Both the position numbers and the translations under genes were made by a program. DNA of 64,000 nt from Dryococelus australis (lineage: Eukaryota; Arthropoda; Insecta; Phasmatodea; Phasmatidae), in the NCBI GenBank assembly GCA_029891345.1, contig CM056994.1, forward strand, positions 227,718,991-227,782,990. The letters are read 5' to 3'. Below the pieces are notes generated by a model, which did not search any database, was not told the origin of the DNA, and was given only the letters and a program-made list of their open reading frames with translations. Positions within the stretch are counted from its first letter, which is position 1, and the number at the start of each line of letters is the position of its first letter. Positions 838 through 48,885 of the stretch are shown here, piece by piece.

Positions 838-1040
838 GGTTATAGTGGTAGGGGCGGGCGGGTCCGAGACCACATAGACATTTGACCCTGTGCCCTACTT
901 TTGAATGCGCATTCGACCTACTTTTGAGTGCACTTTTGGCCTATTTTCAATTTTTAGCACACACTCTGACTTAATTTCCAGAAAAGTGCAATTTTTGCAA
1001 GCTTAACTTTGGAAATTGAATTTTTTGCACATCCACTTCT
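838..1040 (+). repeat. left arm tip of palindrome 1
   Basis: This is the terminal block, rich in short reiterations such as CTACTTTTGA and TTTTTGCA. It pairs inverted with 48,640-48,885, including the motif CATTTGACC at both ends. Beyond it the flanks stop matching. Confidence 0.6.
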
Positions 1041-1094
1041 GGTCTGCAATTTTTAAATTTTTTGAAACAAGTTTTTTGGGCACAATTTTTTCCA

Positions 1095-1400
1095 GGTTTA
1101 AGTATATTTTGAAATGATGAATAATATATAGACTCAGTATTTCACTTAGGGTATTGATCTACATTTATTTATCTACGCATATTCCTTTTATACCAGTAAC
1201 ATATATCTTTAAGTTACTATACTTGTTCTTACATGCACAGATGGGAAATCAATTCAGTTAGCTATTGATGTAAATTTTTTTTATTTCATAGCTTACAAGT
1301 GATAATAAGTAGCATGCAGTAAAATAAAAGTTTGCTTTTATGATACACTATTTAAATTTTGGTGTAGTTTATGTACTGTTTTTAGGTGAATTTAATAAAT
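1095..1400 (+). repeat. left direct repeat of LTR-like insertion
   Basis: It matches 5,800-6,020 in the same orientation, with about 95 bases missing from the right copy. It is likely LTR-derived, because the pair brackets a non-coding interior. Confidence 0.5.
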
Positions 1401-4400
1401 CAGGATTAAATTAAGTTTTAAGTACCTTTTGTTCAAGAATTAATTACCCGAATGCTTCACGACACTCGTACCAAATATAACAGCTAAGTTATATAGCCAG
1501 ATTATGATCTGGACCACGGCGAATATGTTAGTGTTTCATGAACTTTATTAAATAATCTTTTGTGTTGTCAAATGTTAAAAGATAATATTGTTCTTTTAAA
1601 AATGGTTTTGTTAAATGCGATCTTTATAACAAGAAATACTCATTTGTATGATACAATTAACGTTATAGCTTGTATGGAGTGTACTTCAAGTTCCTTTATT
1701 TTAAGGCATAAACTTTGATCAAGAAAATATTTTTGTTTAAATACAAGCATTCAGTGTAAATTTATCTCGTAGTATGGAGTTATGGTTGTGTTGATAATCG
1801 AAATAAAGATATATTTAACTGGAAACTGCAATTTGATATCTTTTTTATTTATGCATACCTCTGGATGGCTATCAATTAACTAAAAGAAAATCGGTGATAT
1901 TTACTGGCACGATTCCATAAGTAAAATATACGTGGTGTCAGCTCGCCTAACATGTGCACCTTCCAAGTAATAAATAGCAATAATTTGTTATAGTGTCTGA
2001 GTGTTTTGGTAGCAGAAAAGTGTTTTATTTCTTTTTAATGTCCGCATTACAAAGTTATATTTTATTAGTAGTTATTGAATTTCATAACATAATTTTAGGA
2101 CACTGGATTTTTTGTCTATTTACCTGACTGGAATGAATTTTCTGCCACTTGGAGCCTGGTTGAGTTTTGTGTATTTAAAAGAAATTCTGCTTTGAGAAAA
2201 CAAATAGTTATTTTACTCATCATGCAACACCATGGTACATTTCTGGTAGCAGAGCTAAGGTTTTCAGTAACTCTTTGTTTCACACTCCTTATTTGAGGTT
2301 TGTTTATGACCTGTTACATTTCTAGCAGTTTCATAAATTTGTTTGTGAGTTGAGTTTGTAATGAATTTGTTATATAGTCCCGATGATAGTTTAATAGGTA
2401 TAAGTTAAAGTGTATTGAAGACTTGTTTAGATTTTTATATTTTGGTTTTACTTTTCTATTATGTGTCTAAATGTTATGTGTGCTTATTTTTACACTCTGT
2501 TGACCTTAAAGTCAGCACTCGTCCGCCTGAGTCGGCCGGCTGACTCTGGCCATGTCGCAAGTAAGATAATGTCGCAGTTATTTGAGCGACAGTTTTCTTT
2601 TGTTCTTTTGATATTGTGTTACTTGGAAGGATTCTTTATTAGGCACAGTACATTTTGGCAATGCAAACGGAGTTTGTGTTTGTTTTGTACTCATCAGATC
2701 AAGTTTTTTTCCACATGTTCATGTAAGTTTCTTAATTGACTCTGTTTATTCAAGATTTTTATCTAAATGGAAGTGCACATGGGGTTTAAAATATTTTGTA
2801 ATGTTTGGTAACGAACCTTGGGCTGCGCACAATGTTTATTTACATTGCAGTATTTTGTGTTTACCCAACTTTTAATTATTAGTGCAGCAGTTATTTGCAG
2901 TTTAAAGTGATAATTTGCCTCAAAACATACGTTTCTTAGTGTTTATGTGGTCTGATTGTAATTTATTTACTGCTAGTTTACTGGTAAGTACTGTTCAATT
3001 TGGTACATGCTGACGAACGCTACTCTCCCATCGCGGCATGCTAATTACTGTTTTCACGACTCGTGATTACTCTTGTCAACCAAGTGATTTTTTTTTAAGG
3101 TTGTTGTATGCTTACAAATAACAGTTTTTATGTCCCAAGTTTTAGTATGATAGATTTAGACCTATAAAAATAATTATGTGTGCACTTTGTAAATGGTTTT
3201 TTGGGCGAATTTCGAAGAATTTTTCACAGTTAAAAATGAAGTTTCTTTTGCACTGGTATTGGCTCAATTTAAGTGTTTCTTACATCCCACTGTCATTTGG
3301 AAGTGTTGTTTACATGTTGCAGTTCATATGAAATCATTTTAATTGTTCTGTAAATGTTTCGTAGTGAAACTTAAACCCCGTGCGACGTAAATAAACATCT
3401 CGGTAAGTTGTCTTTTACAACACTCGTGATTATAGTGGCAGTAGTTTTCTTCGCACTATAAGTTTCTTTTTTACTGTTTAGTTTGTGTGATTCTGTTTAC
3501 CATTAATTAACGAGAGTGTGTTGTTAACTATTCCTTCCTACACCTCCATATTGTTTGGCGCAGTGCTGCCAGCTGTGCGAATTTGCATTCCACCAGATTC
3601 GCTGTGGTTTGTTTACATTTAACATGAGTGAATGCTGTTTGGCCCTAATGTGTTCAGGTATGTTTTTAAAGCAATTGTGCCTTAATTTAAAATAGTTTTG
3701 CCAGAGTTTCAAATAATTTAACTGGTTATTCCAGTGTTTTGAAATATGAATTTTCTGCAGCCGTTTGGCTTGGATTTGTGGTTTTTAGGCCTCTGGCAAG
3801 GTTTATTTATTTGTAGTGTTTGGAAATGTGTTTGCTTTGCAAGGTTTGTTTGAAATAATTTTTGGCTCGCAATATTTTGGGGAGTCTTTTGATTTGTTTG
3901 AGTCCAGGCATTTTCCAATTTTAGTGAAATTCCTTGCAGTCTTGGTTTTTCACTTGCAGTTAGATCGTCCAACCCTCAATTAGTGTTTCGGCAGTTTGTT
4001 TACTTAGGCACTTATGACTATCTGATAACATAATACAGTGTATTTTGAATCTTAATACACAAGATTTCTTGGTCACTTAATTGAGTTAAATATTTAATAG
4101 ACTTTGGCATATTAATTAGTTGTTTTGTTTATGATTTTTGCTGATCTTGTGCGAACTTCAGTGTCAGTTTTCGGGAAATTGTATTGCATTCTTTAAGTGT
4201 GGAATGAGACACAACTTGTGTTCGGTATACCTTTTTCCTTGGAACTTGAAAACATTGTGAGTTACCATTGGTTTAGCAAAAATCTTGGTTAAATTTGTGT
4301 AGAGTCTTAATGAGGGCTTTGAAGTAACTTTGGTATGGGACTAGGTTGCTTATCTTTTTTCACTTTTCACCTATTTAATTTTAGTTTTATTTGAGTCTAG

Positions 4401-5799
4401 TCCGAATACCAAATGTAGGTTCACTCTGATACACGAAGTAGTGTGATGCCGTTCATTCCGGTGCACTCTCTCTAATATTAAAAGTAGTGTAATAGTTTGT
4501 TATTCGCATTTGCCATACACTTTTTTTAGGGCAAGTTTGCGACTTAGTTTCATTTTCTTTGTATTCAGTATAAATTGAGTGTCGCATTGGGAGATCTCTG
4601 TACTCATTTAAAGAATTATTTATTTATGATCAGTTTTGAACTTTGAGTGTTAACCATACATTTTCGAGTTCTGAAGGTATTTTGGTTATGTTTCTTGCGG
4701 TAGCACAGAGCTAGGCTCTTGTAGCTGGCTTGAGTACTAGTACGAATCTGATCACCTCAATGTAAACTAGACTCTGCAGTTTCTGTGTGCTAGTAACACT
4801 GATTTGGAGCTTGAGGTGTTGGCTGCTGTCGAGAAGTTGTTTGTTTTAAGTTACCTTAGATTTAGGTTGTGGTTTAGCTTTAAGGCTAAGTTTAAGATTA
4901 GTCATAATGTATGTCACATAGAGTCAAGCATCCTAGGACAGTCTGAAACCTAGGGATGCCTCTGACTTATGTTTGCTGAATTGACTCAGTGGCAGGGGTG
5001 ACCAAGATCCTTGTCCACTGGAATGGACAGTAGTCCCAGGTGGTTATAAAGGAGTTTCATTCCCAGGTACCTCAGTGCTCATGTTTGCAAGTCAGCATCA
5101 TAACAAAGCTCCTTGATCACCATCAACATCACCTCATTCTGTATCTACTGTTCCTAATATTATTTGAATACACGAATTTTGTGTGACCAAGGAATACTTT
5201 ATTTGTTGTTGGGTGTTGTGCTCAACTTATTTCATGTTTCAAGTCAGAGATTTAGGAATGATTTTTAATCGTGGTTTGTGTGCTGTGGCTATGTTATCTG
5301 ACATTTTGAGTCATGGTTTGGTGATTGTGTTGTTGTGCTTAACTCAGCTAACATTTTTAATTTTAGTTTTTGGCTTTGTTTAGTTGTTTTGTGTTATTGT
5401 TTTGTGTGACTTTCCTCAGGTCGTGTTTTCTTCAGAGAAAACCTAGTGTACTCTTTTAGGGGGGGAGCCTGTGTCGTTGTAGAATTTTGGAAATTTCTAC
5501 GGGACACTGTTTTTTTAGTTCTTACCATTTTTAATTTTATGGTGCAATTTTTGGGTATGTATTTTCGTAAGGTTTACAGCAAAACCTCTGTATTTTAATG
5601 AGTACCATGTTCTAGAATTTATGAATGTCCTTTATTTTAGTTTTTTATGCTAATGTTAGAAATCTAGTTAATTTTAATAAACGGGCAAATACCACTTCTA
5701 ATTATGTAACAGAATTTAAAGGTCACATGATAAAAGTTTTTGTTATTGCGGACTTTGATTTCGTCAATTTGATTTATTTTTGAAAGTGAAGTTAGTAAT

Positions 5800-6020
5800 T
5801 AAATATTAATTTTTATATTTTAAAATACGAATAATATATAGGGTCAGTAGTTCACTGAGAGTCTTGACCAACATTTATTTGCATATATATATTAATTTGA
5901 TCCCTGTAAGGTATCTCTTGAAGTCACTATATAAAGTTTTCCTTTATGATATACAATTTAAATTTTGGTGTAGTTTATTTACTGTTTTGAGGTGCATTTC
6001 ATAATTAGAGATTATTATTA
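5800..6020 (+). repeat. right direct repeat of LTR-like insertion
   Basis: Second copy of the 1,095-1,400 repeat. The possible polypurine tract and LTR start at about 5,460-5,475 would put this inside a 3-prime LTR of about 0.7 kb. Confidence 0.5.
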
Positions 6021-6384
6021 GTGACCAGATGGATATATTTCTGGTTCTCTTAAAACGATTTGAATTTTGTTTAGTTCATTTAATTTAAACATAGTATGTT
6101 CCTTCCAGTTGTAGGGAATTCTAAAATAGCGGTTTATCAATTGCTCGGCAATTTTTTGTGTAAAGCATACAAATGAACTTGACTTATTTGCCAACATCCA
6201 AGCAAGAAAAAAAGACCATCGGGAAGCTTAGTCGTATGGAATTCGAGCAGGGCTCGGTGGCTGCAGCACGATGTTAGACCTACCATGGGCTGCTGTCACA
6301 TCTGTTTCAGGTTTGTGTGCTTACATTGAACTGCATTTTTCGGTCTATTCCCGGCGAGTACAAATCTTAGAAATATTATTTTGG

Positions 6385-6655
6385 GAATCCTGGGTTCGAT
6401 TCCCAGACAAAGCACTTAAATTACTTTAATTTTTGGAATTCTGGAAATTTTGAGTTCAATTCCCAGCAAGGGATATTTTGGAAAAATTTATTTTTTTGAT
6501 TTTGGTTTTGAGTACTGGGTTCGATTCCTGGACAGGGGTATTTTTGAAAACTGTATAATTTTTAATTCTTGAATTTCGGAATTTTTTGTGTGGGATTCCT
6601 GGTTAGATTAATTAAAGTATTGTTATTTAAGGACTACTGGGTGCGATTCCCAAAC
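6385..6655 (+). repeat. T-arm-like hairpin array, left arm, outer block
   Basis: Hairpins with a 5-bp stem and 7-base loop shaped like tRNA T arms recur at roughly 60-120 base steps. CTGGG-TTCGATT-CCCAG is at 6,390-6,406; variants are at 6,450, 6,515 and 6,637. The loops match the RNA polymerase III B-box consensus GGTTCGANTCC. The spacers are AT-rich and themselves alike (GGAAAATTTAT, AATTTTGGAATT). No complete tRNA surrounds any copy. The block pairs inverted with 48,320-48,650. Confidence 0.7.
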
Positions 6656-6659
6656 TGAC

Positions 6660-7107
6660 CAATTTCTGGAAAATGCAGTTAAATCTACTTATGCAATCAC
6701 ATGCGAGGTTGAGTGGAGGGATGGGAAATACATTTACTTACACATGCTGCTCCATTGGTGTTACCTGGCCGGTGTCGCTCGGTCGACTGATGCTTGGTGG
6801 CTGGTGCACTCGGTGGTCTTGCCTTGGCTGTGTCACTCTCACTAGGTGGCCATCTTGGTTCTAGAGTTGACTGCTAGGGGTGCGGGTGTTGCTCTCGCTC
6901 GGCCACCACCTTAGATCTAGAGTTGGCTGCTAGAAGCACTAGTGTCACTTTATGTCATCAGCTACTAGGAGTGCTGGTGTCGGCTTAAGACTAAGTACAA
7001 TGTCCGCTAAATGCAGATGTGATATTGTTTAATACAGTATAAAGAGTTGCGGAGACAAGTGGTGGCGAACTGCGGGAGCTCGGATTGCTAGATAAACGCT
7101 CTAGTCA
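6660..7107 (+). repeat. left arm block with CTCGGTCG/CTAGAGTTG repeats
   Basis: This GC-richer arm segment pairs inverted with about 47,860-48,280. Within it a motif of about 80 bases (AGAGTTGACTGCTAGGGGTG and relatives) repeats near 6,860, 6,910 and 6,955. The end (about 7,060-7,107) is the counterpart of the tRNA-like sequence at 47,853-47,915. No coding potential is evident. Confidence 0.5.
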
Positions 7108-7495
7108 ATGGAAAGCCCCACTAAAGATCCACTTTTATGCACATTGTGTATTATTCCACCTTGTGTAAAATTAACATTGTCATGACCCTCGTCACTTTAC
7201 CCATGCGTTGGTGAAGTGAAACTGTGAAATTGTTAGAAAAGTAAACATTTATAAATCTGATAATTTTTACAAATGGAGGCATAAAAGTAACAAAAAGAGT
7301 AAGAAATAATTTAAACAATCTCAAATGGTTACCTAACACTGTTTATATGATGCTAGCATATGGAACTACTTTCCATACGTCATTACCAAATTTACCGGGC
7401 GTATGTCACTCAGTGTGCCCGTTATGCAGGCAAGGGCAGTGACATTTTTCTAAGGTTGATTTCAAAAGTGCTCACTTTATCGTGTACAGCCTTTA
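7108..7495. mobile_element. small insertion in left arm
   Basis: This segment is missing from the right arm, where matching sequence jumps across at about 47,850. Its right part (about 7,385-7,505) is repeated inverted at about 52,055-52,165 outside the palindrome, sharing AAGGTTGATTTCAAAAGT and TGTCACTCAGTG. It behaves like a dispersed, probably non-autonomous element. No ends were defined. Confidence 0.4.
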
Positions 7496-7619
7496 CCAGT
7501 ACAGGTCTAAATGATGTATATATAAAATGATGCACCTGTATATGAACTTGAATTTTCAAAAATAATTTGATTATGATGAACTGTCCATCAATTAAACAAA
7601 AACGTATAGTATAAATAAA

Positions 7620-8230
7620 AGTTATGTACTTAATGTAATATTATTTATTTCGCATTTAAAACTTACAGAAAACAGAAAAGTGTATGTCGAGTAATGTGTC
7701 TTTGGATTCGTATTTTCAAGTTGAATTTGTAGTAGTTGATACAAACATCGATTATGAACAATGATAATTTTATAAATAAAGTTATGTGTATAAATTAAAA
7801 TACTTTTAATTGACATTTAAAACAAGTATATCAAGCGATATCTCCACGAAACGATATTTTCAAGGAGAATTTGATTACGATGCCACAAACATAGAATATG
7901 AACAATCATAATTTTATAAATAAAAGTCATGTATTTAAAGTTATACAATTTATTTCACTTTTAAAACTTACATAAAAATGTATGCCAAGTGATATGTCCA
8001 CGGAACCGTATTTACAACGAAAATTCGATTATGATGTCACAAACATCGATCATGAACATTCATAATTTTATAAATAAAAGTTATATATTAAGTGTAATAC
8101 AATTTATTTCACTTTTAAAACTTACAGAAAAGTGTATGTTGAGCGATGTGTCCACGGAACCATATTTTCAAGGAGAATTCGAAAACATCACAAACATCGA
8201 TTATGCAAAATGTGATTTTATAAATTCATG
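7620..8230 (+). repeat. tandem repeat of about 153 bp, left arm
   Basis: About four diverged units. The anchor TTTAAAACTTACAGAAAA recurs near 7,655, 7,815, 7,958 and 8,113, and each unit also has CGATTATGAACAATCATAA and GTCCACGGAAC. It pairs inverted with 47,130-47,800. Open frames across it follow the repeat and carry no known motif. Confidence 0.75.
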
Positions 8231-8354
8231 CTCTGTCATTCCATTCCATCCAGGTGTTAGAAGCCAACTGATGCACTCATCGAGTGCTGGTCAACTGATG
8301 AGATGTAATTGTTTTCGGGGGGAAATGGGAAATTCAGTGACATTGTGCAATTAT

Positions 8355-9205
8355 TAATGAGTTCGATTCCCAGACAGCCATAATTTGGTAAAATTTATAA
8401 ATTTTTTACTTTAGAATTTTGAAAATTTTTTAGTTGGATTTCTAATTATAATATAAAGCTATTTTTGGATTACCAGGTTCGATTCGCGCACAGGACACTT
8501 AATATTATTTTAAGTTAAATCCAAGACAGGATAATTTTGGAAAATTTTTATACTTTTTGGACTTGGTTGAGGAATACTGGGATCCAGTTCCTGACAGGGT
8601 AGTTCCAGAAAATTTTTCAAAGTTTTTTTTTGAACATTTTGCGAATTTCTGGTAAATGTAGTTACATTTACTTACACAATCATATATGTAAACTCTTCGG
8701 TGGTCGGAGAGAAAGTGAGCTGTTGCGCAATAACACATGTTGATGCTTTGATAGGTGGATAGTAACTGATGTGTTGGTCCGTCCACAGCTGTATCACAAC
8801 TGAACTGGTGTGGAGGGGGAAATGCACATGCATGCACACACATTCACACACACTCTCACCTATCCTCTCTTCCCTTCCCCTTCTCATATCACCCTACACC
8901 CTGTGAGACTACCAGAGGTGTGAAGAGTTGTGTTGGCTGGCATCGTGGCTTGGAGACCTGCCAGAGTGGATAACTGTGACCACTGGTGAGTGGTTTGGTA
9001 TAGAGTTTGATTCCCAGAAAACACATTTACAATTTGGTTTATATTTTTTCCTAACCTTCGGGCTCTAAAAACAAGTGGGCGGATTGACAATGACTTCAAT
9101 TACCGAACAAGACATGTAAATTTTTTTATCTATATTTTCCTAAACCTCTTGACTTTGACAAATGGCGAGTGGATTGGTAGGGAATTCGATTCCCATTCAG
9201 GATAC
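8355..9205 (+). repeat. T-arm-like hairpin array, left arm, inner block
   Basis: Further T-arm-like hairpins: TGAGTTCGATTCCCAG at about 8,359, CCAGGTTCGATTCGCG at 8,473, and decayed ones near 8,580, 9,005 and 9,185. Between them lies non-array sequence (8,650-8,990) containing CACACACATTCACACAC-type runs. It pairs inverted with 46,260-47,010. Confidence 0.65.
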
Positions 9206-9319
9206 ATACATTTTATTTGCACACTTGCACAATGAGACAACCGTATGAAAACCAGCTCTCGACAAAGCCCTTTGGCATTTACCAAAGGGTAATTTTTTCT
9301 CACCTGTGTTTGATTACTG

Positions 9320-9560
9320 CCATTTGTTTCTCTCTTACATTCATCCAACCAGATGCACGCATGCCATCCATCCCCTTCAATGTTTTCCCATTGTGTAATT
9401 ACTCCTTCATTGCTTCACATTAGCTGTTTAGTCGGCAAGCCTCCAACACTTGGGTTTGAACAATTAGTCGTATGTGCTCCATCCCTATCAAAGTTTTTCC
9501 ATTGGCTGATTACTCACCTGAGTTCGACTGCAATGTTGGATCCAAGACTATTGAAAATGT
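9320..9560 (+). repeat. tandem repeat of about 120 bp, left arm
   Basis: Two units sharing TTTTCCCATTG/TTTTTCCATTGGCTGATTAC and GGCAAGCCTCCA. Two more units lie just right of the gypsy insertion (24,195-24,355), and the inverted partners are at 45,905-46,130. Confidence 0.6.
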
Positions 9561-9785
9561 GGTAATGTAATGGATATTTACTTTAAACATATGTACACAA
9601 AAGAGACTTGAACCTGTACATATGCAATCACCAACTCATTATACAATTATCAAGTACACATTTGAGAAGTACACATGTGCAATAAATACCTAACAAGTAA
9701 GCCCTTGCATTATGTGTCGAGAGATAACATCCGCCACTATGACACCCTGCGCTCGACTGAATGTTGATCATATATATAATCATTT
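9561..9785. other. left arm spacer before the gypsy insertion
   Basis: AT-rich sequence with CAAGTACACA/GAAGTACACATGT reiterations. No gene is seen. It ends at the ATAC target site of the retrotransposon. Confidence 0.4.
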
Positions 9786-9789
9786 ATAC
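9786..9789. repeat. target site duplication ATAC (left)
   Basis: ATAC directly precedes the left LTR and recurs at 24,186-24,189 directly after the right LTR. A 4-bp duplication is usual for Ty3/gypsy integration. Confidence 0.8.
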
Positions 9790-11411
9790 TAACGTCTAGT
9801 AGGGATCGGCGTGATGAAGCCCAAATGCAGGCAGGCCGATTGACTGCTAATGGGATGTTCACAGAGTCTCGAACATGAGTAATAAATGTCCGGTGGGTGC
9901 CAGCTAACCAACAAAGGGAATCCTCTCAGCTTAACATCAGACTCTTGCAGTGGGCTTGGGTCGAAAAGCCTGGGCTAAACTACCCTGTGTCCCTTGCCAT
10001 CTGAATATGGTGGTGTTAAAGAGCGGCTTAGACTGGTTTACTGTAACATCTGCACTCGAGCTTGGATATTCTGGCTTTCCACCATGCCTTACCCACACGG
10101 AAATACACTTCAAACAGTTACACATACAGCACTCAAAATCTTATGTGGTCGCAAACATGTGGCAGATATCCGGCAAAGTAAGGTCCATCGGTCTTAAACC
10201 TCCTCGACAAGCGAGAATAAATGTATCCAAACACATCAGTTACATAAACTTGATGATTATTCAGCACTGGTGATGTGATGGTACAGGATTGGAAATGTAA
10301 GCAGGCATGCAGCATAAGGCCCTGCATAGGCCTAAGCTGCGAAAAATGTATGAGACGTGGTGAAATTTAATTGATTTAATGCCAGAGGGGCCGTGAGTTT
10401 GCCCCAGATGGGAGGTTTACTCAGAGGTGCATGGAAGAAATAATAAAGTGTTCCAGGAATTTAAGTCTATTGTAGTAACATGATGAGTGCTAAGATGCTT
10501 CAACTCCGAGTTGCTAGAACGCCACCTGCCGTAATGACTGTCAAACCCAAGATAGAAGAGGGTGGCATGGCGTCGGTGACGCCTGTAATGGATGCTGCGC
10601 CAGAACAGAAAATCCCTTGACAAAATATTTTATGTGAATTATGCGAAACATAGCAATGGATGACACATATCACTTGACATATTATGCAACATATCACTTG
10701 GCACCTTATGCAAGACACTTGTACAAAACATTTGGATAAAATAAAAAATTAACACTTCACTGATTTTTATAGTTGAAATAACTATTGTTCTTTAATTCTT
10801 TCGTTCAACTGGAAGATAAGAACATAAATAAGTACCCTTGCAATTTGAAAGTAAAGATTCTGTATTAATTTGGAGCTTACAACTTAATGTACACATTTTC
10901 AAAAAATTATTAATGTAATTTCGTTTTGCACAGTTCGAAGTGTGCACATCACACTAGTGACATCATGTCAAATTTAGCTATTTTTATTACTTTGCTGCAA
11001 TAAAAGGGCTCACTGCTAGTTATTAAGTTCCCTTATTATTGTGACTCAGCTACACTAATAACTTTTCCAAAAGAATAAGGGATTACTGAGATCCACGTGC
11101 CCACATGGTCGACACTTTGCACTATTACTGCTACGTGGATTTAATAGGGATTCATCACATTTATTTACTGGGTGCTATTAATTTGTGCGGCAAATTTTAA
11201 TAAGTGTAGCGATGCAATCAACACTCGTTAAGAAAATTTATGGCGTGTGGCATTAATAGTCTTTGCACTGACTCACTTAATGGTAAGGCTGGTGGTGGCC
11301 TCCGACAGTGCACAGAATGACCAACCCTCTACTGCAGGAATTTCTTACCTGGAACGCTAGATAGTGCGCACGGGTCTACAAGGGCTACACTGCTAGCTAC
11401 AGCTGGCATCA
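9790..11411 (-). repeat. 3-prime LTR of gypsy element (left copy)
   Basis: In element orientation it starts TGATGCC at 11,411, just after the polypurine tract, and ends ...CGTTA at 9,790. The first 158 plus-strand bases match 17,555-17,712 and the rest matches 22,802-24,185. This uninterrupted copy reveals the LINE insertion in the other LTR. Confidence 0.85.
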
Positions 11412-11430
11412 AACTCCTCCCTCCCCCACC
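11412..11430 (-). other. polypurine tract
   Basis: Read on the minus strand this is an unbroken G/A run (GGTGGGGGAGGGAGGAGTT) ending directly at the LTR start. This is the position and composition of a plus-strand primer for gypsy reverse transcription. Confidence 0.75.
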
Positions 11431-14970: not shown

Positions 14971-14986
14971 CTCACTAACCTGCGTG

Positions 14987-37803: not shown

Positions 37804-37811
37804 GCTTATAT
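37804..37811 (-). promoter_or_regulatory. TATA box of left zinc-finger copy
   Basis: CAGTATATAAGCAT on the minus strand, about 105 bases before the ATG, conserved with 39,851-39,864. The following bases (CCTGTAAGAAT, CTTCGGCGAAC, GGAAGGCAGATCGTC) are also conserved in both arms, unlike much of the surrounding DNA. Confidence 0.6.
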
Positions 37812-38387
37812 ACTGTTTACACACAGAACAATAAATTTATGTTATTCTTTTAAACTATCTCAGCACACATCTACTGGGATGATAATCATTCCATTCATTA
37901 TCTAATCTGCGAAGTCATCCATCACACAACTATTCGTCTTTACAAGTATACTTCTTCCAATGTTAGATGCATTTTTTTTTCTCTTGTTACTTCTGCACTC
38001 TTCCGTCGTGCATTACACCCATTTGTAGACCCATTTTATTTCATGTCATGCATACATCAGATGGAATTATCTAGGTAGGTGTGTAAGTTCAGTATCTTTG
38101 TCAAATGCTGTGAGTTAAGCTTTCCATATAACACAATAGCTGATAAAATCTTCTGACCACTAGAACAACATGCCATCATTTTTTCACTAAACCCTCACAG
38201 TGAGAGAAAGATGTTTTGGATGATTTGTAGGGGCGACACACATATCATCCATTTATATGTCTTAAAAAATTTATGTATCTAAGTCTCAAGTCACTCGAAC
38301 TCAGAGAAAGAGAGCTCTTGCTCGAATGACAGACAAACTACGAATGAGGCCATCTCGACTGTCTCAATATATGTTTGAAAATGTTTT

Positions 38388-38472
38388 GTCAAGTGTGAAA
38401 TTTTAACCCATGTTCCCTTTACAAGGAACTAGAGCTTAAATCCAGCATCTTAGACTGCTTTACCAACCTGAA
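38388..38472 (-). tRNA. tRNA-Leu(UAA)-like, left arm, degenerate
   Basis: Inverted counterpart of 39,043-39,127. The anticodon arm (CTGGATTTAAGCTCTAG) is identical, but the D arm (GGTTGGTAAAGCAG) and T arm (GGTTAAAATTTCACAC) have lost key bases. Probably a pseudogene. Confidence 0.6.
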
Positions 38473-38668
38473 AATCTGTAAATGTGCACATTTCAGAGAA
38501 AGTTTGTATAGTGAAAATTTTTAAAATTATCCTTGAATGATGTCGTAGTATCTTAACCTTATGTTCAAAATGTACTGTATAAAACAAAAAGAAACATAAT
38601 TTTCGTAGCAAAATTTTTAATTCTCAAAAAAAAAATCATAAAACCTTCAGAATATCCAAAGATATGTT

Positions 38669-38829
38669 CACCCAGAAGAAAACACACTCTATATATTTAT
38701 AGTCCTATTTATATAATTATGTATACTGCTATCTTATAGATTATATATATTCTTATCTTATACATAGTTATACATACATTCATATCTTATAGATATTCAT
38801 ATATATTCCTACATGTTTTCTTCTGGGTG
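38669..38829. repeat. hairpin core of palindrome 1
   Basis: CACCCAGAAGAAAAC (38,669-38,683) and its exact complement GTTTTCTTCTGGGTG (38,815-38,829) bracket a 131-base AT-rich loop of TATACATA-type words. Next outwards on the right, GGGTTTTCTCACAGTGCTCACAT is shared in part with palindrome 2. Confidence 0.9.
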
Positions 38830-39042
38830 AATGTGTCTCTGGGTTTTCTCACAGTGCTCACATATCGCGAAGGTTTTATGATTTTTTCTGCAAATATAAC
38901 ATTTTGCTAAAAAAATTATGTTTCTTTTGGTTTTATACAGTAAATTTTGAACATAACGCTAAGATACTATGACGTCATCCAAGGATAAGGTTAAAACTTT
39001 ACATTATACAAACTTTTTCTGAAATGTGCTCACTTACAGATT

Positions 39043-39127
39043 GTCAGGTTGGTCGAGTACTCTAAGATGCTGGATTTAAGCTCTAGTTCCTTGTAAGGGG
39101 AGCGTGTGTTCGAATCTCACACTTGAC
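39043..39127 (+). tRNA. tRNA-Leu(UAA)-like, right arm
   Basis: An 85-base class II tRNA fold by eye. Acceptor GTCAGGT pairs with ACTTGAC (one G-T). D arm TTGGTCGAGTACTCTAAG. Anticodon stem CTGGA/TCTAG with loop TTTAAGC giving anticodon TAA. Long variable arm around TTCCTTGTAAGGGGAG. T arm GTGTG-TTCGAAT-CTCAC with one mismatch. A and B boxes are recognisable. It could be a real gene, but the T-stem mismatch and its place in a repeat make function uncertain. Confidence 0.75.
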
Positions 39128-39853
39128 AAATAATTTTCAGCCTTATATTGAGCCAGTCGAGGTGGTCTCATTCGCAGTTCGTCTGTCGTTCGAGTAAGAT
39201 CTTTTTATATCTGACTGAGTTAGAGTGATTTGAGACTTAGTTACATCATTTTTAGACATATAAAAGCAGCTTTTGTGTCGCCACTACAAAACACACAAAA
39301 TGTTTTTTTTTTCTCATTGTGATGGTTTAGTGTAAAATGATGGTGTATTTTTCTAGCAGTCAGGTAATTATATAAGCTATTGTATTATATGTAAAGCTTA
39401 TATCACTTGTGCCATTCGACAAAGATACTGAACTTGCAAACCTACCAAAATAATTCCTTCTGACATATGCATCATATGAAATAAAATGGGTCTATAAACG
39501 TTTACCTGCAACAATACAAAGATATTCCTGGTTGTCTCCCTTGTATAGAGCGTTGTCGAGGATGTTATTCTGTTACTAAGACACCTCATTCAAGGATATG
39601 GTGTAATACATGACGGAAGAGTGCTGACGTAACGAGAGAAAAAGAAAAGACACATCCAACATTGAAAGATGTATAAGTGTAAAGACGAATGGTGGTTGGA
39701 TGGATGTCTTTGCCATTTAGATAATGAACTAAATGATTATCCTTCATATAACACTGCAGCAAGTATATTGCTTTTACATTTTAATACTCAGTAGACATAT
39801 ACTGGGGTAGTTGAAATTGATAACATAAACTAATAGTTCTGTTGTGAAAACAG

Positions 39854-39861
39854 TATATAAG
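39854..39861 (+). promoter_or_regulatory. TATA box of right zinc-finger copy
   Basis: CAGTATATAAGCATGC lies about 110 bases before the ATG at 39,967. A start site near 39,885 (TTTCACTTCTTCGG) would fit the usual 30-base spacing. Conserved in the left arm at 37,804-37,811. Confidence 0.6.
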
Positions 39862-39966
39862 CATGCATCCTGTAAGAATATTTCACTTCTTCGGCGAACG
39901 TGATGGAAGGCAGATCGTCACAGCGTGGGATCATCTAGTGATGTTGTACCCTGCTATAATATCAAC

Positions 39967-40454
39967 ATGGCATCAATGGTACCATCTGTAACATCATCAG
40001 CAGTGGCAAGGATCTTCGAAGAGTCGCCAGAAGAAGTACCATATCAATGTCACTACTGTGGAAATACTTTTACTACAAGACATAGTGCATGTCGACATGA
40101 AAGTAGCAATTGCATGTTCAGCCCAGCATAGAAGGTATTCTACTGTGATAACAGCGATTTAGGTTCACCCACAGTGATAAGCTGTACGGACATAACAAGA
40201 TGTGTAAATGCAATATCTGTTGTTCATCGGGGAGTGAGTGCAAGTATTGCACATTCGCGACTATCTCTAGCACCAGACAACACGAATCTAGTAACTGTAT
40301 GTTCAGCACCTCGTACAAGATGTATCCATGTGATAATTGTGGATTAATGTACGCGAATAGGGGTACCTTGACTGCGGATAGCAGGATTTGTTCTATAAAA
40401 ATACTAAATCATAAGTTTTTGTCTTGTCTCGAGGAAATTTTTGAGTGTATGTAA
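39967..40454 (+). pseudogene. C2HC zinc-finger protein, right arm copy
   Basis: ATG at 39,967. Four C2HC fingers can be followed. Finger 1: YQCHYCGNTFTTRHSACRHE plus SSNC; a stop follows at 40,129. Finger 2: YCDN with the second Cys replaced by Ser, then after a +1 shift FTHSDKLYGHNKMC. Finger 3: CKYCTFATISSTRQHESSNC. Finger 4: YPCDNCGLMYANRGTL with the His lost. An ancestral product of about 160 residues made almost only of fingers is implied. The C-x2-C-x12-H-x4/5-C spacing recalls fingers common in large DNA viruses; origin is not established. Broken by one stop and at least one frameshift. Confidence 0.75.
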
Positions 40455-40486
40455 TTAATAATATCCATTTTTGAAAAAGTGTGTGA

Positions 40487-40492
40487 AATAAA
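40487..40492 (+). terminator. polyadenylation signal of right zinc-finger copy
   Basis: AATAAA 33 bases after the last stop, within GTGTGAAATAAAG. In the left arm the mirror reads GTGTGAAATAACG, so the signal is lost there. Together with the TATA box it outlines a compact single-exon gene. Confidence 0.5.
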
Positions 40493-41525
40493 GATAAAGT
40501 GCATGAAATACTATTGTGTTTATTAATTTTACCATCAATATACATTTTATCCTAGCATTAAATGTAAAAATATACTAGTGTTTTTATTATAATTATTTTT
40601 GTAATAACTGATGGTGAGTGTAGAGTGAATGTTTGAAAGTAGTACTGACTTCCGACTTCTACGATGTGATGAAATTTGTGTTCGATTTACTAGAAGCAAG
40701 TGTCTTGTATGATATTATGATATAGTTTTCAATGATTTAGTTTTAATACTTTTCACAGGAGTGTTTGATAGGAATGTTCTGATAGTATGAGTATTGGGTA
40801 TCCTTTGGTTGCCTAACTGTTCAAATTGGTGTATTGGTAATGCTAGTCGTAATGAATTGTTCAATGGTTAATATATCTTGTCTGTATTGTGTATTAACAT
40901 TGCTGGTAATGTTTTATGGTAAGAGATTTGTGAATTGATATTTGTAATGTTTCTCTGCTGGAACATTTGAATTGCTGGTTTGGTGTTATGGTCTATTATA
41001 ATACGATTTTTTAAAGGTTTGATTTTTGACTATGGTATACTGTGTGGTTGTTGGTAATATTTGAATATGTGTTTGCTATTGCATGATGAAATGGTTTATC
41101 AGAGTAATTCACTGGACTATTTCACAGGAACGCCTATATGATTGCTTTGTTGTCCTGGATGGTATGAAGGAAAGTATTTGGTGTAACCGACATGATTGAA
41201 TGAAATGGAATTTAGATAGTGTTCAGGTATTTTTTGGTATTACAAATTAGAATATTTTGTCTGTAAGATTACGTAGCAATATATGTTTGGTCTGTTTTAA
41301 AAGCGAGAGTAATATGACATCAAAATATTATGAGTTATTTTAAACATTTATCGATGGGTAGATGGAAGTTTTGGCTATATAGTTGGTTGATATGACATTA
41401 ATTGATAGTTGTGCTTCGCGGGAAGCTATTCGACATATTTAATTAATACTTATATTGTGATAGGGTCGAGGACTCTGTTTCTGTAAATGAAGCATTGGCA
41501 TATTGGGATGTGGGCAAAAAAAAAG
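40493..41525. repeat. right arm of palindrome 1, inner block
   Basis: Non-coding arm DNA paired with 36,210-37,140 (for example ATCCTAGCATTAAATG at 40,549 faces the mirror of CACCTAACGCTAGGAT at 37,082). No gene is seen. Confidence 0.7.
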
Positions 41526-41529
<4 letters not shown>

Positions 41530-41596
<67 letters not shown>

Positions 41597-43203
41597 CAGC
41601 GACCCGCCCCGGCTTCGCACGGGTGCAATTAAGATTAAAAAACTGCTTAACCCGGCGTTAATTAGGTTGGGTAAACTCTCCTAATGCATTTTAAAAAAAG
41701 CACATTATAATTTAATCATTATTTAAATAATTTATAATTTAAAGTTTTTTTGCTATTTTAATTTCATATTTTTTTACTTTTTTATAATTTTTCATATTAA
41801 TATACATGATATTAGAATGCAATTTATCTGAGATAGAAGTATTTAATATGTTATTGGCTAAGAAATTCTCTGTAGACAATGTTTGACGTCCTGTTATTGT
41901 TTGGTAGCAAAATGTACTGTTTCTCGGGACTTCCAACTCTTGATAAACCAACATATAGTTGGTAATGGGAAAAACACTCTTTTCGTAGGTCGATTCCAAC
42001 CAAAGAGAAAGTTTGACCCTGGGACTTATTAATAGTAATCGCGAACGATTTTTTTACGGGAAATTGCAACCGTTTGAAAGATATTGGCATATCCGTGGGA
42101 ATCATGGGAATCCTCGGGATGTTTGCCAGCTGGCCGGCTGCTGGACCGGTGAGGATGGTCGCGACAATCAAATTTTCTTTTAAGTCTTTAATGAGCAATC
42201 TTGTGCCATTACACATGTTAGGAGGGCCTATATTCCTTAAAAGCATGATAGGAGTACCGACTTTTAATGATAGTTCGTGAGGTGGCAAGCCAGAAGGATT
42301 AAGCGAATTTAGAAAATCTTGAGGAAAGTGGACGACATCGTCAACATTGGTGACTGTGTCAATCGACTTATAGGTTTTGACGTGGCCGGGAACTCTTTGT
42401 ATAATGAGATTGTTGATTTCATTGACAGTGTCGTTCCTAGGCGATACTACTGCCCTGGAACACAACCAGTGAAAGTCTCTTTCTAGTAAATTTTCGAGGC
42501 CAGGATATACTGCTTCTATAAGATGCTGCAGACTGTGGACTATCTGACCTAATGTCTCATTTAAAATGATTTCAGCAGAATTAGTGCCCAAATTTAGAGA
42601 AGGAAAAACTCCTTCCCTAAGTCTGAGCAGTTGTTGTGGGAAATCTTTATGCGTGTCTCCGCCAAGATAGGCTCTCATATTCGTTCGCAAATTTAGGTGT
42701 TGAATAGAACTCCATAAGGGAGATGATTTAAGACATGTTTTGATGATATCTGCACGCGTCCCTTTTGTAACTACAGGGAGTGTCTGTCGAAATCCCCAGC
42801 AAACACAAAAGTAACTCCCCCCAATAATGGCAGTAGAGCTTCTACAGTTGGCGCCGTACGCAGCACACAGCACGTTTTATTTTCCGACTCTGTCCGTCCT
42901 GCAAAGCCGTAGTACATTATTTTGTTCTATCATCAATAGTTTTCGCAGCGCACGTAATGTAAAGAATTTTATAGGTTATTTATTTACACTTTGGGTTACA
43001 TTATTGGAGTTTTAGTAGAGATCCCTATTGATTTTTAAAATAAAATATAGCCTATGACACTCAGTGATAACGTAGCATTCTACTGGTGAAAGAACTTTTT
43101 AAATCGGATGAGTAGTTTCGAAGATTACCTCCTACATCCAAACACACAAATACACGAAATTACAAACACTACCTCTTTATATATATATATATATATATAT
43201 ATA
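41530..43203 (-). mobile_element. Helitron-type helicase fragment between TA repeats
   Basis: An insertion in the right arm: the left arm continues across it near 36,205. It starts after (TA)n at 41,530-41,590 with the GC-rich GACCCGCCCCGGCTTCGCAC and ends before (TA)n at 43,178-43,203. It carries the C-terminal half of a Pif1-like helicase. Ends are obscured by the TA runs, so the original termini are not certain. Confidence 0.7.
41851..42873 (-). pseudogene. Pif1-like helicase of a Helitron, C-terminal half
   Basis: An open 340-residue frame on the minus strand. It has FRQTLPVVTKGTRADI (the DFRQ motif, Asp replaced by Gly), VGTPIMLLRNIGPPNMCNGT, FAITINKSQGQTF and LYVGLSRVGSP, in the order of the last motifs of Pif1-type helicases fused to Helitron Rep. 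Walker A and B and the whole Rep nuclease lie upstream and are missing, since the element ends near 43,178. The intact frame over 1 kb suggests a fairly recent insertion. Helitron Rep/helicase drives rolling-circle transposition. Confidence 0.85.
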
Positions 43204-45900
43204 ATTCTGAAGAATAAATTAATACACCAAACAATAACAATATATTGCTTGTTTTAAAAATAAGTTTATAAGTGAATGGTGTGCAGGTGGTGAGATTGCT
43301 ATAACATAAATATTTCTTATAGTAAATGTTCTCTACTAAATGGAATATCATGGGTATGTTTGGGTAAGGGATAGCAGAATGTTCGAACCTATGTCCTTCC
43401 GAAAATGTGTATGAATATAGTATTTGCCTACGCATGTTATACGACTAAGGTATATATATTTATTTATTGTATGTAAGATAGACGTGGCAATAATTTTATT
43501 GAAGTTTTTGCATAAATATTTTTTTGAAAGTATTGCATTATAACTCTTATGATCTGTTTAATTACACAGTGGCAGATTTTAAACATATTTTCTACCCTCT
43601 TATGTTACTACATTCAGAAAGGTATAAATAAATGGAATGTTTAGGCAAAGAAGACTGGTAGCTTGCAATGAAGGTTGAGAATGCGGAGAGATGTTAGTTA
43701 ATGTGTGTGTGTGTGTTGGACGAGTGTTGTAGAGGAGGTGAGTGTTTCACAAATGCTTTATAATTACAAGGTTGCGCTGTGGAATGTTGGTTGCCCAGGC
43801 GGGTTTCTAATGCTCTCCTTTACAGGTTGGTTGACTGTACTCGCTTCTGCCTTTCGAGAGATCATCTCGACATTGTGTTATAAATGCTATCTTCTCGGGA
43901 AGATTGCAAGAGATGGGCCCTCACTCTCTCTCTCTCTCGTTTTCTAAACTAATATATGTGATGACCTGGATGTTATCTACATGATAATAAATTAACATTG
44001 CAATTAGTGAAACGGTATATGCATATTCACTCTCATCAGGATTTCAAACAAAGAATTTGATACAATGTATGTGAATATCTTCGTTGGGATTCAAGTAGAA
44101 AAAAATACATCTGTGTATGTATATAAATTTTGTCGGAGTTCGAAGCAATACAAGAACTTTTTCTCGTTGGGAGATGAAGCAGGATTTTTTTATATCGTAG
44201 TTATCCTTAATGGACGTTTCTGGAATTCTTGTCTGACTGGTTAATATTTGGGACATTAGGTTAACATTAAAAATTAATTTTCTTTAACATAAACCAGTAA
44301 TACAATTTTTTTAGACATTAGGAACATTTTTGAGGCATGCTTTTATGTTTTTTAGAGTTGTACTTCCATACTCGTTTGTGTTGAAATTTTCATTGCTAAA
44401 GTGTATGAATTTCTGAAAAAAATTTCTATAATGATATACTTAATTACATATGTATGTTATGCAGTTTGTTATTATGTAACCTTCCTAGCTAAAGCACTCA
44501 CCGGCATCTTTTCTTCGAGTCTGTTGTTCTCCCTTCCAGAGATGACGATAGACTTATAAGAGAACTGGGTAGGTGGGGAAAGGAAGTTCTTTGTTGATCG
44601 ACGACCTGTGGTAGCTTGATAGAGAGACGATGAACGTTGCACACAAGTTGTAGACAGACTGTCATAGGTAATGGAAAGGCATATTTTTAAAGTGTTTGGT
44701 GTGTAGTGCATTTTATATTTACAACATGATAGGTATATAAGTTATGCATAATAACAAACATTTGTTAGTCGCAAGTTAGCTTTGGTTATTGCAAGATGTA
44801 TACTTAGGGTGAAATTAATCATGTTAGTTATTCAATATGTAAATACTACTTGTAAGTGTCTTTCATAGGGTATGATGCATGGTATAAGTTCTCGATCCTA
44901 CAGTTGTCTTCCATCCTCATTTGTTGTGCTTCATTGGTCGATGGGAAGTTGGTTTCAGCTCATTATGTACATAGTACTTGCATTTGGATATTCGTTATGC
45001 CAATACTCTCGATAATTTACTTGTTACAAAATTAAATAAAATCTGATTATCCTGTATGTATCTCGACTCAATAAGTAAATACTACTTGTGTGTAAATAAT
45101 CTTGCTAGTTAATCATTGCTTGTTACACAAATACGCATATTTTACTCTTGATGGGTGATGAGTCGAGCCAAATTTCCCCAATGATAGTTCGGTTTAAAGT
45201 ATTATGCCTTACTCAGGTTGTTTAAAATTGACTGAGTTCTATATGGGCATGAATGAAATACGGGTAATTTTTTAAATACAATTGTTTAGACCAGTCATTC
45301 GTGTGGGACTAATAGTGCTTACAGGTTATGTAACAAAGCTTGTGTTTGCTATCGATCGACATGAAAATTGTGGTAATGAGTGTTTTTGTCAGCCTCTAGT
45401 ATTTATATTAGTGTGAATGCTTTCAATATTGTCACTAGTGAAAATTTCTTTTGGTTTGGTCAGTGACAGGAGAATGTGATACTTGCACACTCCTTAGACA
45501 TCTTCGGGTCAGGTAGCCTGTGATGTTCTCTGCTGCACGGTCCTCCTCGCTACATCTCGTGAAGGCTCTTAGCTGGCTGGTAAAAGACTCGTTTTCCGCT
45601 ACATGAACGCAACTCTGTTGTTGGCTGCGTGCGTTAAATATTCGGGTTGAAGTCTTACTTGCTATGCCTCCACGGATGTAACTCTGTTGCTGATGCGTAC
45701 TTGACAAGTGTGTACTTGGTAATTGTTTAATGAGCTAGTGATTACGTAATGGTAACTATGGTTACAGTTATGCTTATGCATATACGTACCTACATATGTG
45801 CATATTTAGTAAATATTTATTAACTACTCTATTATGCTTGATTAAGGAAGTGCAAGTGTGCTATTAATCAACCTAATCAAAAATATATATATTTAATATG
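43204..45900. repeat. right arm of palindrome 1, middle block
   Basis: Arm DNA paired inverted with 35,515-36,205 and 24,480-26,014. Segment 44,010-44,150 has no left partner (lost or inserted at the PolB element junction). Short GT and CT runs at 43,702-43,717 and 43,921-43,940. No gene is seen. Confidence 0.7.
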
Positions 45901-45904
45901 TAAT

Positions 45905-46130
45905 AGCCTTGGAATCCAATATGGCAGTCGAACACAGATGAGTAATTAGCCAATGGGAAAACATTTATGGGGATAGAGCGCACCTGACTAATTGGTTGAA
46001 CGCATGTGTTGGAGGCTTGCCGACTAAACAGTCAATGAAAAGCAATGACAGAGTAATTAGTCAATGGGAAAACAGTGGCAGGGATGGATGGCATGCATGT
46101 AATTGATTGAATGAATATAAAAGAGAAACA
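45905..46130 (-). repeat. tandem repeat of about 120 bp, right arm
   Basis: Two units containing AATTAGCCAATGGGAAAAC / AATTAGTCAATGGGAAAAC and GGAGGCTTGCCGAC. Inverted partner of 9,320-9,560 and 24,195-24,360. Confidence 0.6.
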
Positions 46131-46259
46131 AATTATGGTAGCCGAATTAGGGTGAGAAACAATTACAGTTTGGTACATGTCACTGGGCTTAATCGGGAGC
46201 TGGTTTCATAGGGTGTAATGTGTAATTATTCTCATTGCGCAAGGGCACAAATAAAATTT

Positions 46260-47010
46260 AAGTATCCTGAACAAGAATCGAATAATTCCGCACCAATATA
46301 CCCTCTGGTTGCCAGAGTCCAGGGGTTTAGGAAAACATATTTTTAGAAATTACATGTCTTGTTAAGGAATCGAAGTCAGTATCAATCCGCTCTACGGTCG
46401 TTGGAGCCCAGAGGTTAGGAAAAAATATAAACAAAAATTTAAATGCATTGTCCAGGAATCTACCTCCATACGAAACCACTCACCATTCGTCAGAGCTATC
46501 CACTCTGGCAGGTCTCCAAGCCACGATGCCCGCCAATAACTCTTCACAACTCCAGTAGTCTCACAGGGTGAAGGGGGTGAGGCAGGGGAAGGGAGGATAG
46601 ATGAAAGTGTGTATGTGCATGTGTGTACGCACAAGTGCACTTTCCCCTCCATGCCAGTTCAGTTATGATGCAGCTGTGCATGGACCAACACTTCAATCAC
46701 TATCCAGTATCAAAGCATCAACATGTGTTATTGCGCAACAACTCACTTTCTCTCCGACCTTCGAAGAGTTTACTTGCGTGATTGTGTAAGTAAATGCAAC
46801 TGTATTTCCTAGAAATTCATTAAATTACCAAAATGTTAAAAATATATTATAAATTTTCCGAAATTACCCTGTCTGGAACTCGAACTCGTTATTTCAAAAC
46901 CAATTCCAAAAATAATATATATTTTCCAAAATTATCCTGTATGGGAATCGAACTCAAAATAATATTAAGTGTCCTGTCCGGGAATCGAACCTGGTCATCC
47001 AAAAATAACA
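46260..47010 (-). repeat. T-arm-like hairpin array, right arm, inner block
   Basis: On the minus strand, T-arm-like hairpins such as CCAGGTTCGATTCCCGG (about 46,979-46,995), with variants near 46,938, 46,870, 46,450, 46,365 and 46,275. Mirrors 8,355-9,205. Confidence 0.65.
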
Positions 47011-47129
47011 TCACATTATAACCAGCAATCCAAAACAGAAATTTCCAAAATTAAAAAAAAAAATGATTTTCCAAAATTACACTTCCAACACCCTGATGGT
47101 ATGGAATAACAGAGCATGAAATCATAAAA

Positions 47130-47800
47130 TCATATTTTGCAAATTAATTCTTGTAATGTCATAATCGAATTCTCCTTGCAAATATAGTTCCGTGGACATA
47201 TCGCTCGACATACACATTTCTGTAAGTAATAAAATGAAATAAATTGTATTACATTAAAAACATAACTTTTATTTATAAAATTATGATAGTTCTTAATCGA
47301 TGTACGTGACATCATAATCGAACTCTCCTGGAAAATTTAGTTCCGTGAAAATATCACACGACATACTCTTTTCAGTAAGTTTTAAAAGTGAAAGAAATTG
47401 TATTGTATCAAATATGCAAGTTTTCTTTATAAGATTATGATTGTTCATAATCGATGTTTGTGACATCATAATCGAATTTTCCTTGAAAATATGGTTCCAT
47501 GGACATATCGCTCTATTTTCTTATTTTGAAAGTCAAATAAAATCATTTAAATTTAAGCAAGTGACTATATTTATAAAATTATGTTTGATCATAATCGATT
47601 TTTGTGTCAGCATATACTAAAAATCCGTCTTGAAAATGCGAATCCACAGGCACATTATTCGGCGTACACTTTTCTGTAAGTTTTAAAAGTGAAATAAATT
47701 GTAAGACATTAATACATAACTTTTATGTATACTATTCTTTTTTGTATCATTGATGGATGTTACATCATAATCAAATTATTGTTGAAAACACGAGTCCATA
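47130..47800 (-). repeat. tandem repeat of about 153 bp, right arm
   Basis: About four units. CTGTAAGTTTTAAAAGTGAAA-like anchors fall near 47,220, 47,373, 47,520 and 47,677, and GACATCATAATCGAA recurs. Mirrors 7,620-8,230. Confidence 0.75.
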
Positions 47801-47852
47801 CACAGGAGGATCTTTTTATATAAACATAATTTAGACCTGTACTGATACCCAT

Positions 47853-47915
47853 GTCCTGGTAGCTGAGTTGACTAGGGCGTCTGTCTACCAATCCAAGTTC
47901 CAGCAGTTCGCCTTT
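47853..47915 (+). repeat. tRNA-like sequence
   Basis: GGTAGCTGAGTTGACTAGGG has the form of a tRNA D arm and A box, followed by GTCTGTCTACCAATCC and CCAGCAGTTCG, a weak B-box. No closed acceptor stem was found. Inverted relative at 7,060-7,107. Likely a tRNA-derived relic. Confidence 0.4.
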
Positions 47916-48315
47916 CCTCGCCTCCGCAGCTTTTTATACTGTATATAACCATATAAAATCTGCGTATATAGAACATTGCCCTTAGCCTCCTGCTGACACC
48001 AGTACTCCTAATAGCCGATGACGACATCAAGCGATACTAATGCTCCGAGCAGCCAACTCTAAAACTAAGATGGTGGCCGAGAGAGAGTGACACCAGCGCC
48101 CCTAGCAATTAACTCTAGAACCAAGATGGCGGCTGAGCGAGAGCGACACCGCCAAGGTGAGACACCTAGTGCACCAGTCGCCGAGCATCAGTCGACCGAA
48201 CGACACTGACCAGCTAACATCGATGGAGCAGCACGTGTAAGTAAATGCATTTACCCTCTTTCCACTCAACCTCGCTTGTGATTTCGTAAGTAGATACAAC
48301 TGCATTTCCCATAAA
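47916..48315. repeat. right arm block mirroring 6,660-7,060
   Basis: Contains two copies of AACTCTA(G)AACCAAGATGGC-type words (48,055 and 48,110) and AGCATCAGTCGACCGA, the complement of TCGGTCGACTGATGCT at 6,779. Non-coding. Confidence 0.65.
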
Positions 48316-48319
48316 TTGG

Positions 48320-48650
48320 TCAGTCTGGGAATCGAACCTGGTAGTCCCAAAATAACAATACATTAATTACCCTAACCAGGAATCCAACTCAAAAGTTTCC
48401 AAAATTCGAAAATAAAAATATATTAGAGTTTCCAAAAGGGCCTCTGTCCGAGAATCGAACCTAGTATTTCAAAACCAAAATCAGAAAACATAATTTTCCA
48501 AAATATCCCTCGATGGTAATCGGACTCGAAATTTCCAAAATTCCGCAAATATAAATTACATAGTTCTTCGTCCAGGAATCGAACCTGGGATTCCCAAAAT
48601 AATATTTACGAAAATTACACTCGCTAGGAATCGAACCAGAAGAGCAGTGT
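48320..48650 (-). repeat. T-arm-like hairpin array, right arm, outer block
   Basis: Minus-strand T-arm-like hairpins at 48,325 (CCAGGTTCGATTCCCAG), 48,437, 48,505, 48,572 (CCAGGTTCGATTCCTGG) and 48,628. Mirrors 6,385-6,655. Confidence 0.7.
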
Positions 48651-48885
48651 ACTGGAAGTAAATGTGCAAAATATGCACTTTTCAAGGTTAAGTGTGCAAA
48701 AAATGCTCTTTTCGGAAAATTAGGTCACTATGTGTGCTAAAAATAGACAGTAGGTAAAAAGCGCATTCACAAGTAGGTCATGCTGTGCTAAAATAGAAAA
48801 GTAAGTCAAAAGTACATTCAAAAGTAGGTCACCGGTCAAATGTTGAAGTGCTCTCTGACCCACCCTCCATTACTACTAATTATAT
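48640..48885 (-). repeat. right arm tip of palindrome 1
   Basis: Short reiterations of AAGTAGGTCA, TGTGCAAAAAATG and GTGCTAAAATAGA, the complement of 838-1,040. Match is lost beyond about 48,885. Confidence 0.6.

Follow-up and report, generated by a model that had tools for sequence, protein, structure and literature searches.

A large decayed palindrome in the stick insect Dryococelus australis that may be the relic of a foldback-like element

According to the excerpts of published work on which our comparison draws, Galileo, a foldback-like element of the P superfamily in Drosophila, has been linked in flies to chromosome inversions, and its longest copy in D. willistoni has terminal inverted repeats (TIRs) that are 4,246 and 4,680 bp long and contain direct tandem repeats of about 140 bp; it also has an inserted transposable element but no transposase segment. 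Tetris, a foldback element of Drosophila virilis that has been linked to satellite DNA, is described in the same material as a series of flanking domain, tandem repeats of about 220 bp, inner domain and middle, with no conserved open reading frames (ORFs). Here we describe a palindrome of similar layout in the stick insect Dryococelus australis, located within a stretch of 64,000 nucleotides (GenBank assembly GCA_029891345.1, contig CM056994.1, positions 227,718,991 to 227,782,990 of the forward strand), hereafter the window. We tentatively read it, with a probability of roughly 0.45, as the decayed remains of a very large foldback-like DNA element of the non-autonomous kind. The proposed likeness is one of structure, and we do not claim membership in the foldback group.

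Self-BLAST and piecewise alignment of the window resolve the palindrome into twelve collinear inverted blocks that run inward from 843 and 48878 to 38684 and 38814. A first-pass annotation, made by eye, had already reported a large palindrome of nested, collinear inverted blocks converging on 38,749. The palindrome is real and its centre is confirmed as the midpoint of the innermost block ends; the blocks, counted as seven, number twelve, and the outer ends, placed at 838 and 48885, were nearly correct. Neighbouring blocks overlap by at most 29 bp. Single-block E-values reach 0, which excludes a chance origin. The right arm (38814–48878 minus the insert 41522–43207 and a gap of 0.1 kb) is about 8.3 kb long and the left-arm blocks total about 7.6 kb, somewhat less than the 8.5 kb first estimated. 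The arms are separated by a middle of only 129 bp, which is AT-rich and includes a 24-bp tandem repeat.

Across 7,449 aligned base pairs the arms are 84.0% identical, with 1,194 mismatches (16.0%; Kimura two-parameter (K2P) distance 0.181) and 143 gaps, where the earlier estimate by eye had been a divergence of about 10–30%. Transitions and transversions are about equally frequent (608 and 586), and identity per block ranges from 80.4% to 85.7%. Divergence does not differ significantly among the twelve blocks (chi-square p 0.70); when blocks are pooled, the outer five are 17.2% and the inner seven 15.3% diverged (p 0.036).

From outside to inside, both arms carry subterminal repeats, a first cluster of T-arm-like repeats, a 154-bp tandem array, a second T-arm-like cluster, a mostly non-repetitive part, a zinc-finger reading and a tRNA-Leu-like sequence. 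The mirrored order of tRNA-like, zinc-finger, tandem repeat and hairpin-cluster modules given in the first-pass annotation is thus borne out, the left tRNA-like copy by eye only. The motif GACCTACTTTTGAATG, allowing up to three mismatches, occurs four times in the window (892, 915, 48764 and 48815; 0.88 expected), always at one of the two outer ends, from which the motif itself was derived. The T-arm-like clusters are built around GGTTCGATTCCYRG, which looks similar to the T arm of a tRNA, B box included. Allowing up to three mismatches, it matches at 23 places in the window, compared with 6.9 expected and a maximum of 13 in 100 shuffles; 19 of the 23 lie within arm blocks, all on the plus strand in the left arm and all on the minus strand in the right. 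Tandem Repeats Finder (TRF) reports 2.3 copies of the 154-bp unit in each arm. In the outer 2.5 kb, direct repeats make up 50.1% of the right arm (46379–48878) and 46.5% of the left (6330–8830), as against 0–11% in nine comparison stretches of 2.5 kb: two in the inner right arm (6.6% and 0%), four in the flank (0, 0, 0 and 10.9%) and three in inserts (all 0%). A mini-exon reading of the 154-bp array, in which one frame is open in seven of eight units over 15 codons, was dropped because the three codon positions differ almost equally (13/11/11 between the arms and 124/98/143 across all pairs).

We place the foldback-like reading first because this order of domains, namely a short end, outer repeats, an inner domain and a short middle, is that of foldback elements. 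Long inverted repeats form most of the structure, with arms of about 8.3 kb around a middle of 129 bp, and subrepeats lie inside them, occupying about half of the outer 2.5 kb (50% and 47%) and including the 154-bp array of both arms. The coinciding outer ends and their subterminal repeats (four, with 0.88 expected) support the same reading. Galileo, in the published excerpts, likewise has two inverted arms with tandem repeats and an inserted transposable element, and its longest D. willistoni copy has no transposase segment. However, the arms here are about 8.3 kb, the array unit is 154 bp and no target duplication of 7–8 bp was found; the two are set side by side by description. Tetris has the same order of flanking, tandem-repeat outer and inner domains and middle, but its TIRs are described as at most 1,735 bp with target duplications of 8–10 bp, whereas the arms here are about five times longer and no duplication was found. 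Tm1, a Mutator/foldback element of root-knot nematodes, is reported to have composite inverted repeats with internal direct repeats, and one Tm1 holds a gene; unlike the palindrome, the Tm1 copy described is 1,080 bp, and 45 of 53 complete elements have target duplications of 8–10 bp. A literature search on inverted-repeat or palindromic transposons of stick insects turned up nothing on stick insects, only nematode work. The statement in the first-pass annotation that no described class has such a layout was therefore too strong, since Galileo and Tetris, as excerpted, share it at smaller size. Its suggestion of a giant foldback element is the best single fit to the outer repeats, mostly unique inner part and short middle, although unproven, with neither a target duplication above chance nor a transposase domain in the right arm.

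If the palindrome is foldback-like, the element would once have been nearly all two inverted arms, each consisting, from outside to inside, of a short end bearing subterminal repeats, a repeat-rich outer domain and a long, mostly unique inner domain leading to the short AT-rich middle. A transposase encoded elsewhere would have bound the subterminal repeats and mobilised the element, whose arms were probably near-identical at the time of insertion. The arms are now 16% apart. Only the left one contains a long terminal repeat (LTR) element with a nested long interspersed nuclear element (LINE), together with an AT-rich block and two or more other stretches; only the right one contains a Helitron-type remnant.

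Pfam finds no transposase or other mobile-element domain in twelve six-frame translations of the right arm, and the sole line reported there is PyrI_C, below cut-off and on the zinc-finger part. As controls, an equal 8.4 kb of the right flank gave a DDE_1 transposase on the plus strand and nothing on the minus, and the last 6.6 kb of the window, on the minus strand only, gave a DUF4817 helix-turn-helix. Since the right arm shows no such domains and the inserts and flank have them, the recognised mobile elements are arm-specific or lie outside the palindrome, which favours the foldback-like reading. Neither a P-type transposase nor a THAP domain was found in the scan of the right arm, and we do not file the palindrome as Galileo; non-autonomous copies lack it in any case. 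DNA patterns had no matches in viral contigs or in bacterial and archaeal genomes, which says little because a Helitron-end check pattern for insect DNA also matched nothing.

The joined left-arm zinc-finger reading matches zf-C2H2 in Pfam (E 8.6e-08), with the clearest finger at residues 29–48 and the other fingers seen by eye only. The region is present in both arms, each with stops or frame shifts, and the differences are spread about evenly over the three codon positions (7/8/5 and 11/8/12); nothing therefore points to constraint after the separation of the arms, and on the same grounds a functional zinc-finger gene was rejected. The right arm translated frame by frame gave no zinc-finger match in Pfam. 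Among annotated proteins, in a collection that includes at least one from Dryococelus, no relatives were found among 17 candidates at E up to 0.01 or among 277 at E up to 10. The tRNA-Leu-like gene of the right arm scores 39.5 bits (gathering score 29), while its mirror copy in the left arm is more damaged, recognised by eye and detected by neither ARAGORN nor Rfam.

Several observations weigh against a foldback-like origin. Because the window includes no more than 842 bp of left flank, the ends at 843 and 48878 are not proven termini, and they may be insertion edges instead. No target-site duplication above chance is present at these ends, the best shared word, TTATA, being matched or beaten in 356 of 2000 random placements; this test has low power, as a duplication of such age would be degenerate. 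The absence of a transposase from the right-arm scan counts in the same direction, and the arms are nearly twice as long as the longest Galileo arms in the literature excerpts compared. The silence of the zinc-finger searches suits the foldback-like reading but is weak evidence, because the query was a broken reading and the targets were annotated proteins only.

The most serious alternative is a local inverted segmental duplication, in which template switching or break repair mirrored an 8.3-kb repeat-rich genomic stretch across a short spacer and both copies then decayed. We regard this as a real, if doubtful, possibility. It is consistent with the missing target duplication and right-arm transposase domain, with the gene-like material of the arms (zinc-finger reading and tRNA-Leu-like gene) and with the lack of a significant difference in divergence among the twelve blocks, which fits a single event. 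Large palindromes of sex chromosomes have, moreover, been described, and they resemble this one in their long inverted arms with gene content; those of mammals, however, are reported to be more than 99% alike through gene conversion, whereas the arms here are 84% identical. On the other hand, the right arm carries no recognisable transposable element domain, and hence none is common to the arms, though inserts and flank have them, and the concentration of repeats in the outer arm parts is not expected of a random breakpoint.

A chance head-to-head placement of two separate copies of some ordinary repeat or transposon, 8.3 kb long, is an unlikely source of the palindrome. Each arm has its own module order and could be one unit, and unclassified repeats are abundant in phasmids (1.56 Gb in D. 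australis, according to the excerpted genome report), but matching cuts would have been needed on both sides of both copies, 129 bp apart. The fused dimer of a hairpin-ended linear replicon that the first-pass annotation offered is without support and highly improbable: symmetry about one centre would suit it, as would the presumed polymerase fragments in the left-arm AT-rich block described below, yet that block is an insert found in one arm only, and the Pfam scan of the right arm found no replication gene. An assembly artefact, in which a read folded on itself gives a mirror-image contig of a familiar kind, is refuted by the 16% divergence, the 143 gaps and the independent, arm-specific insertions, and its probability is practically nil.

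The coordinates of arms and inserts are collected in Table 1. The left arm carries at least four inserts and the right arm one, and each large insert is confined to one arm, which confirms the independent insertions first noticed by eye.

Table 1. Blocks, middle and inserts of the palindrome, in window coordinates
Feature	Position	Strand	Match or evidence
Left arm block 1, outer end with GACCTACTTTTGAATG-type subterminal repeats	843..1039	+	80.4% to 48878-48655
Left-arm insert with direct repeats 1103-1408 / 5814-6014 close to its ends	1040..6329	.	
Left arm block 2, T-arm/B-box-like cluster 1 (6341-6653) and GC-richer stretch	6330..7108	+	82.1% to 48648-47868; motif scan
Short left-arm insert; 7143-7498 related (74%) to 52427-52063 outside the palindrome	7109..7496	.	
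Left arm block 3, 154-bp tandem array	7497..8263	+	83.6% to 47844-47082; TRF 7832-8182
Left arm block 4, T-arm-like cluster 2 and further repeats	8358..9552	+	83.3% to 47110-45902; motif scan
Left arm block 5, ahead of LTR-element insert	9626..9682	+	82.5% to 45743-45687
Left-arm insert, LTR element with nested LINE (reverse transcriptase 20366-20662, +)	9683..24190	-	rve, RVT_1 domains; exact edges not fixed
Left arm block 6	24525..26011	+	85.4% to 45695-44161
Left-arm insert, AT-rich, 9.5 kb, 23-30% GC	26012..35520	.	Boundaries from block alignment; composition
Left arm blocks 7-9	35521..36258	+	83.3-85.7% to 43982-43386, 43316-43208, 41521-41487
Left arm block 10, broken zinc-finger reading on - strand (about 37240-37720)	36268..37876	+	85.0% to 41370-39789
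Left arm blocks 11-12, decayed tRNA-Leu-like copy (by eye)	37881..38684	+	82.7%, 84.2% to 39741-39600, 39498-38814
Middle, AT-rich, 129 bp	38685..38813	.	TRF 38694-38811, period 24
Right arm inner part: tRNA-Leu-like gene 39042-39129 (+), zinc-finger reading about 39950-40400 (+)	38814..41521	-	
Right-arm insert, Helitron-type remnant with Pif1 helicase ORF 41854-42876 (-)	41522..43207	.	PIF1 and Pif1_2B domains
Right arm outer part: mostly unique, T-arm cluster 2, 154-bp array 47159-47509, T-arm cluster 1 to 48637, subterminal repeats	43208..48878	-	

The LTR element of the left arm, which has integrase and reverse transcriptase domains and is of gypsy type by their order, bears on the age of the palindrome. 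Its LTR-like repeats (9951–11407 and 22802–24181) are 83.8% identical, and their divergence of 16.2% (K2P 0.183) is indistinguishable from the 16.0% of the arms (p 0.94). If the pair are true LTRs, and thus were identical at insertion, the equal divergence implies that the arms were near-identical when the LTR element entered. The palindrome would then be older than the LTR element, though not measurably so, or gene conversion would have held the arms alike until that insertion. Consequently the earlier view of a biological structure that predates the nested transposons holds for the order of insertion and not for age. The insert is not cleanly bounded. Beyond the outer LTR, a 156-bp piece (9792–9947) resembles 17557–17712, as in a truncated tandem multimer, which the LTR element may be. 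Beside this insert, at 24190–24520, lies one more diverged copy of arm sequence, resembling 45913–46088.

The AT-rich block of the left arm is an insert, being absent from the right arm, where only 178 bp (43983–44160) occupy the matching place. Its ORFs resemble DNA polymerase B fragments of Polinton/adintovirus type, an identity that Pfam does not confirm. Eight ORF pieces of the block gave no Pfam match at cut-off, with no line for ORF 30023–30295 and two sub-cut-off lines for the other seven. AGTCGG-type motifs can be seen by eye near both ends of the block.

The right-arm insert is probably a Helitron-type remnant. Among the 120 matches listed of 2,495, the highest identity to its helicase ORF is that of a partial D. 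australis protein (93%, spanning 59% of the ORF), and full-length matches reach 72%. Transfer between species is known for Helitron-type elements, so that the match by itself suggests a phasmid host but is no proof of one.

Further repeats lie to the right of the palindrome. A DDE_1 transposase fragment and, after it, a PHD-like part that falls short of the Pfam cut-off span 54190–55086; together they are presumably a decayed pogo-type element. Tandem arrays of 16- and 21-bp repeats, then diverged copies of about 290 bp, occupy 58020–60364. A second, smaller inverted repeat (61387–62499) has arms of about 0.45 kb that are 80% identical. On the minus strand at 63039–64000 is a remnant with the DUF4817 helix-turn-helix, which we assume to be mariner-like; ORF 63039–63419 within it has no Pfam match.

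It is conceivable, though we would give it little credence, that the palindrome is the founding copy of a giant foldback family of stick insects, in which arrays resembling the RNA polymerase III B box and a tRNA-Leu-like gene make the ends boundaries bound by TFIIIC and the transcript is a long hairpin RNA. A TFIIIC boundary function of the arm repeats is speculation. In the excerpted genome report, repeats make up 63.29% of the D. australis genome and 1.56 Gb are unclassified from databases. If the palindrome arose by local duplication instead, it would be one more decayed palindrome, ordinary and of limited general interest. If true, a family of foldback-like elements with arms of 8 kb would explain part of the unclassified repeats of D. 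australis and would widen the size range of foldback elements.

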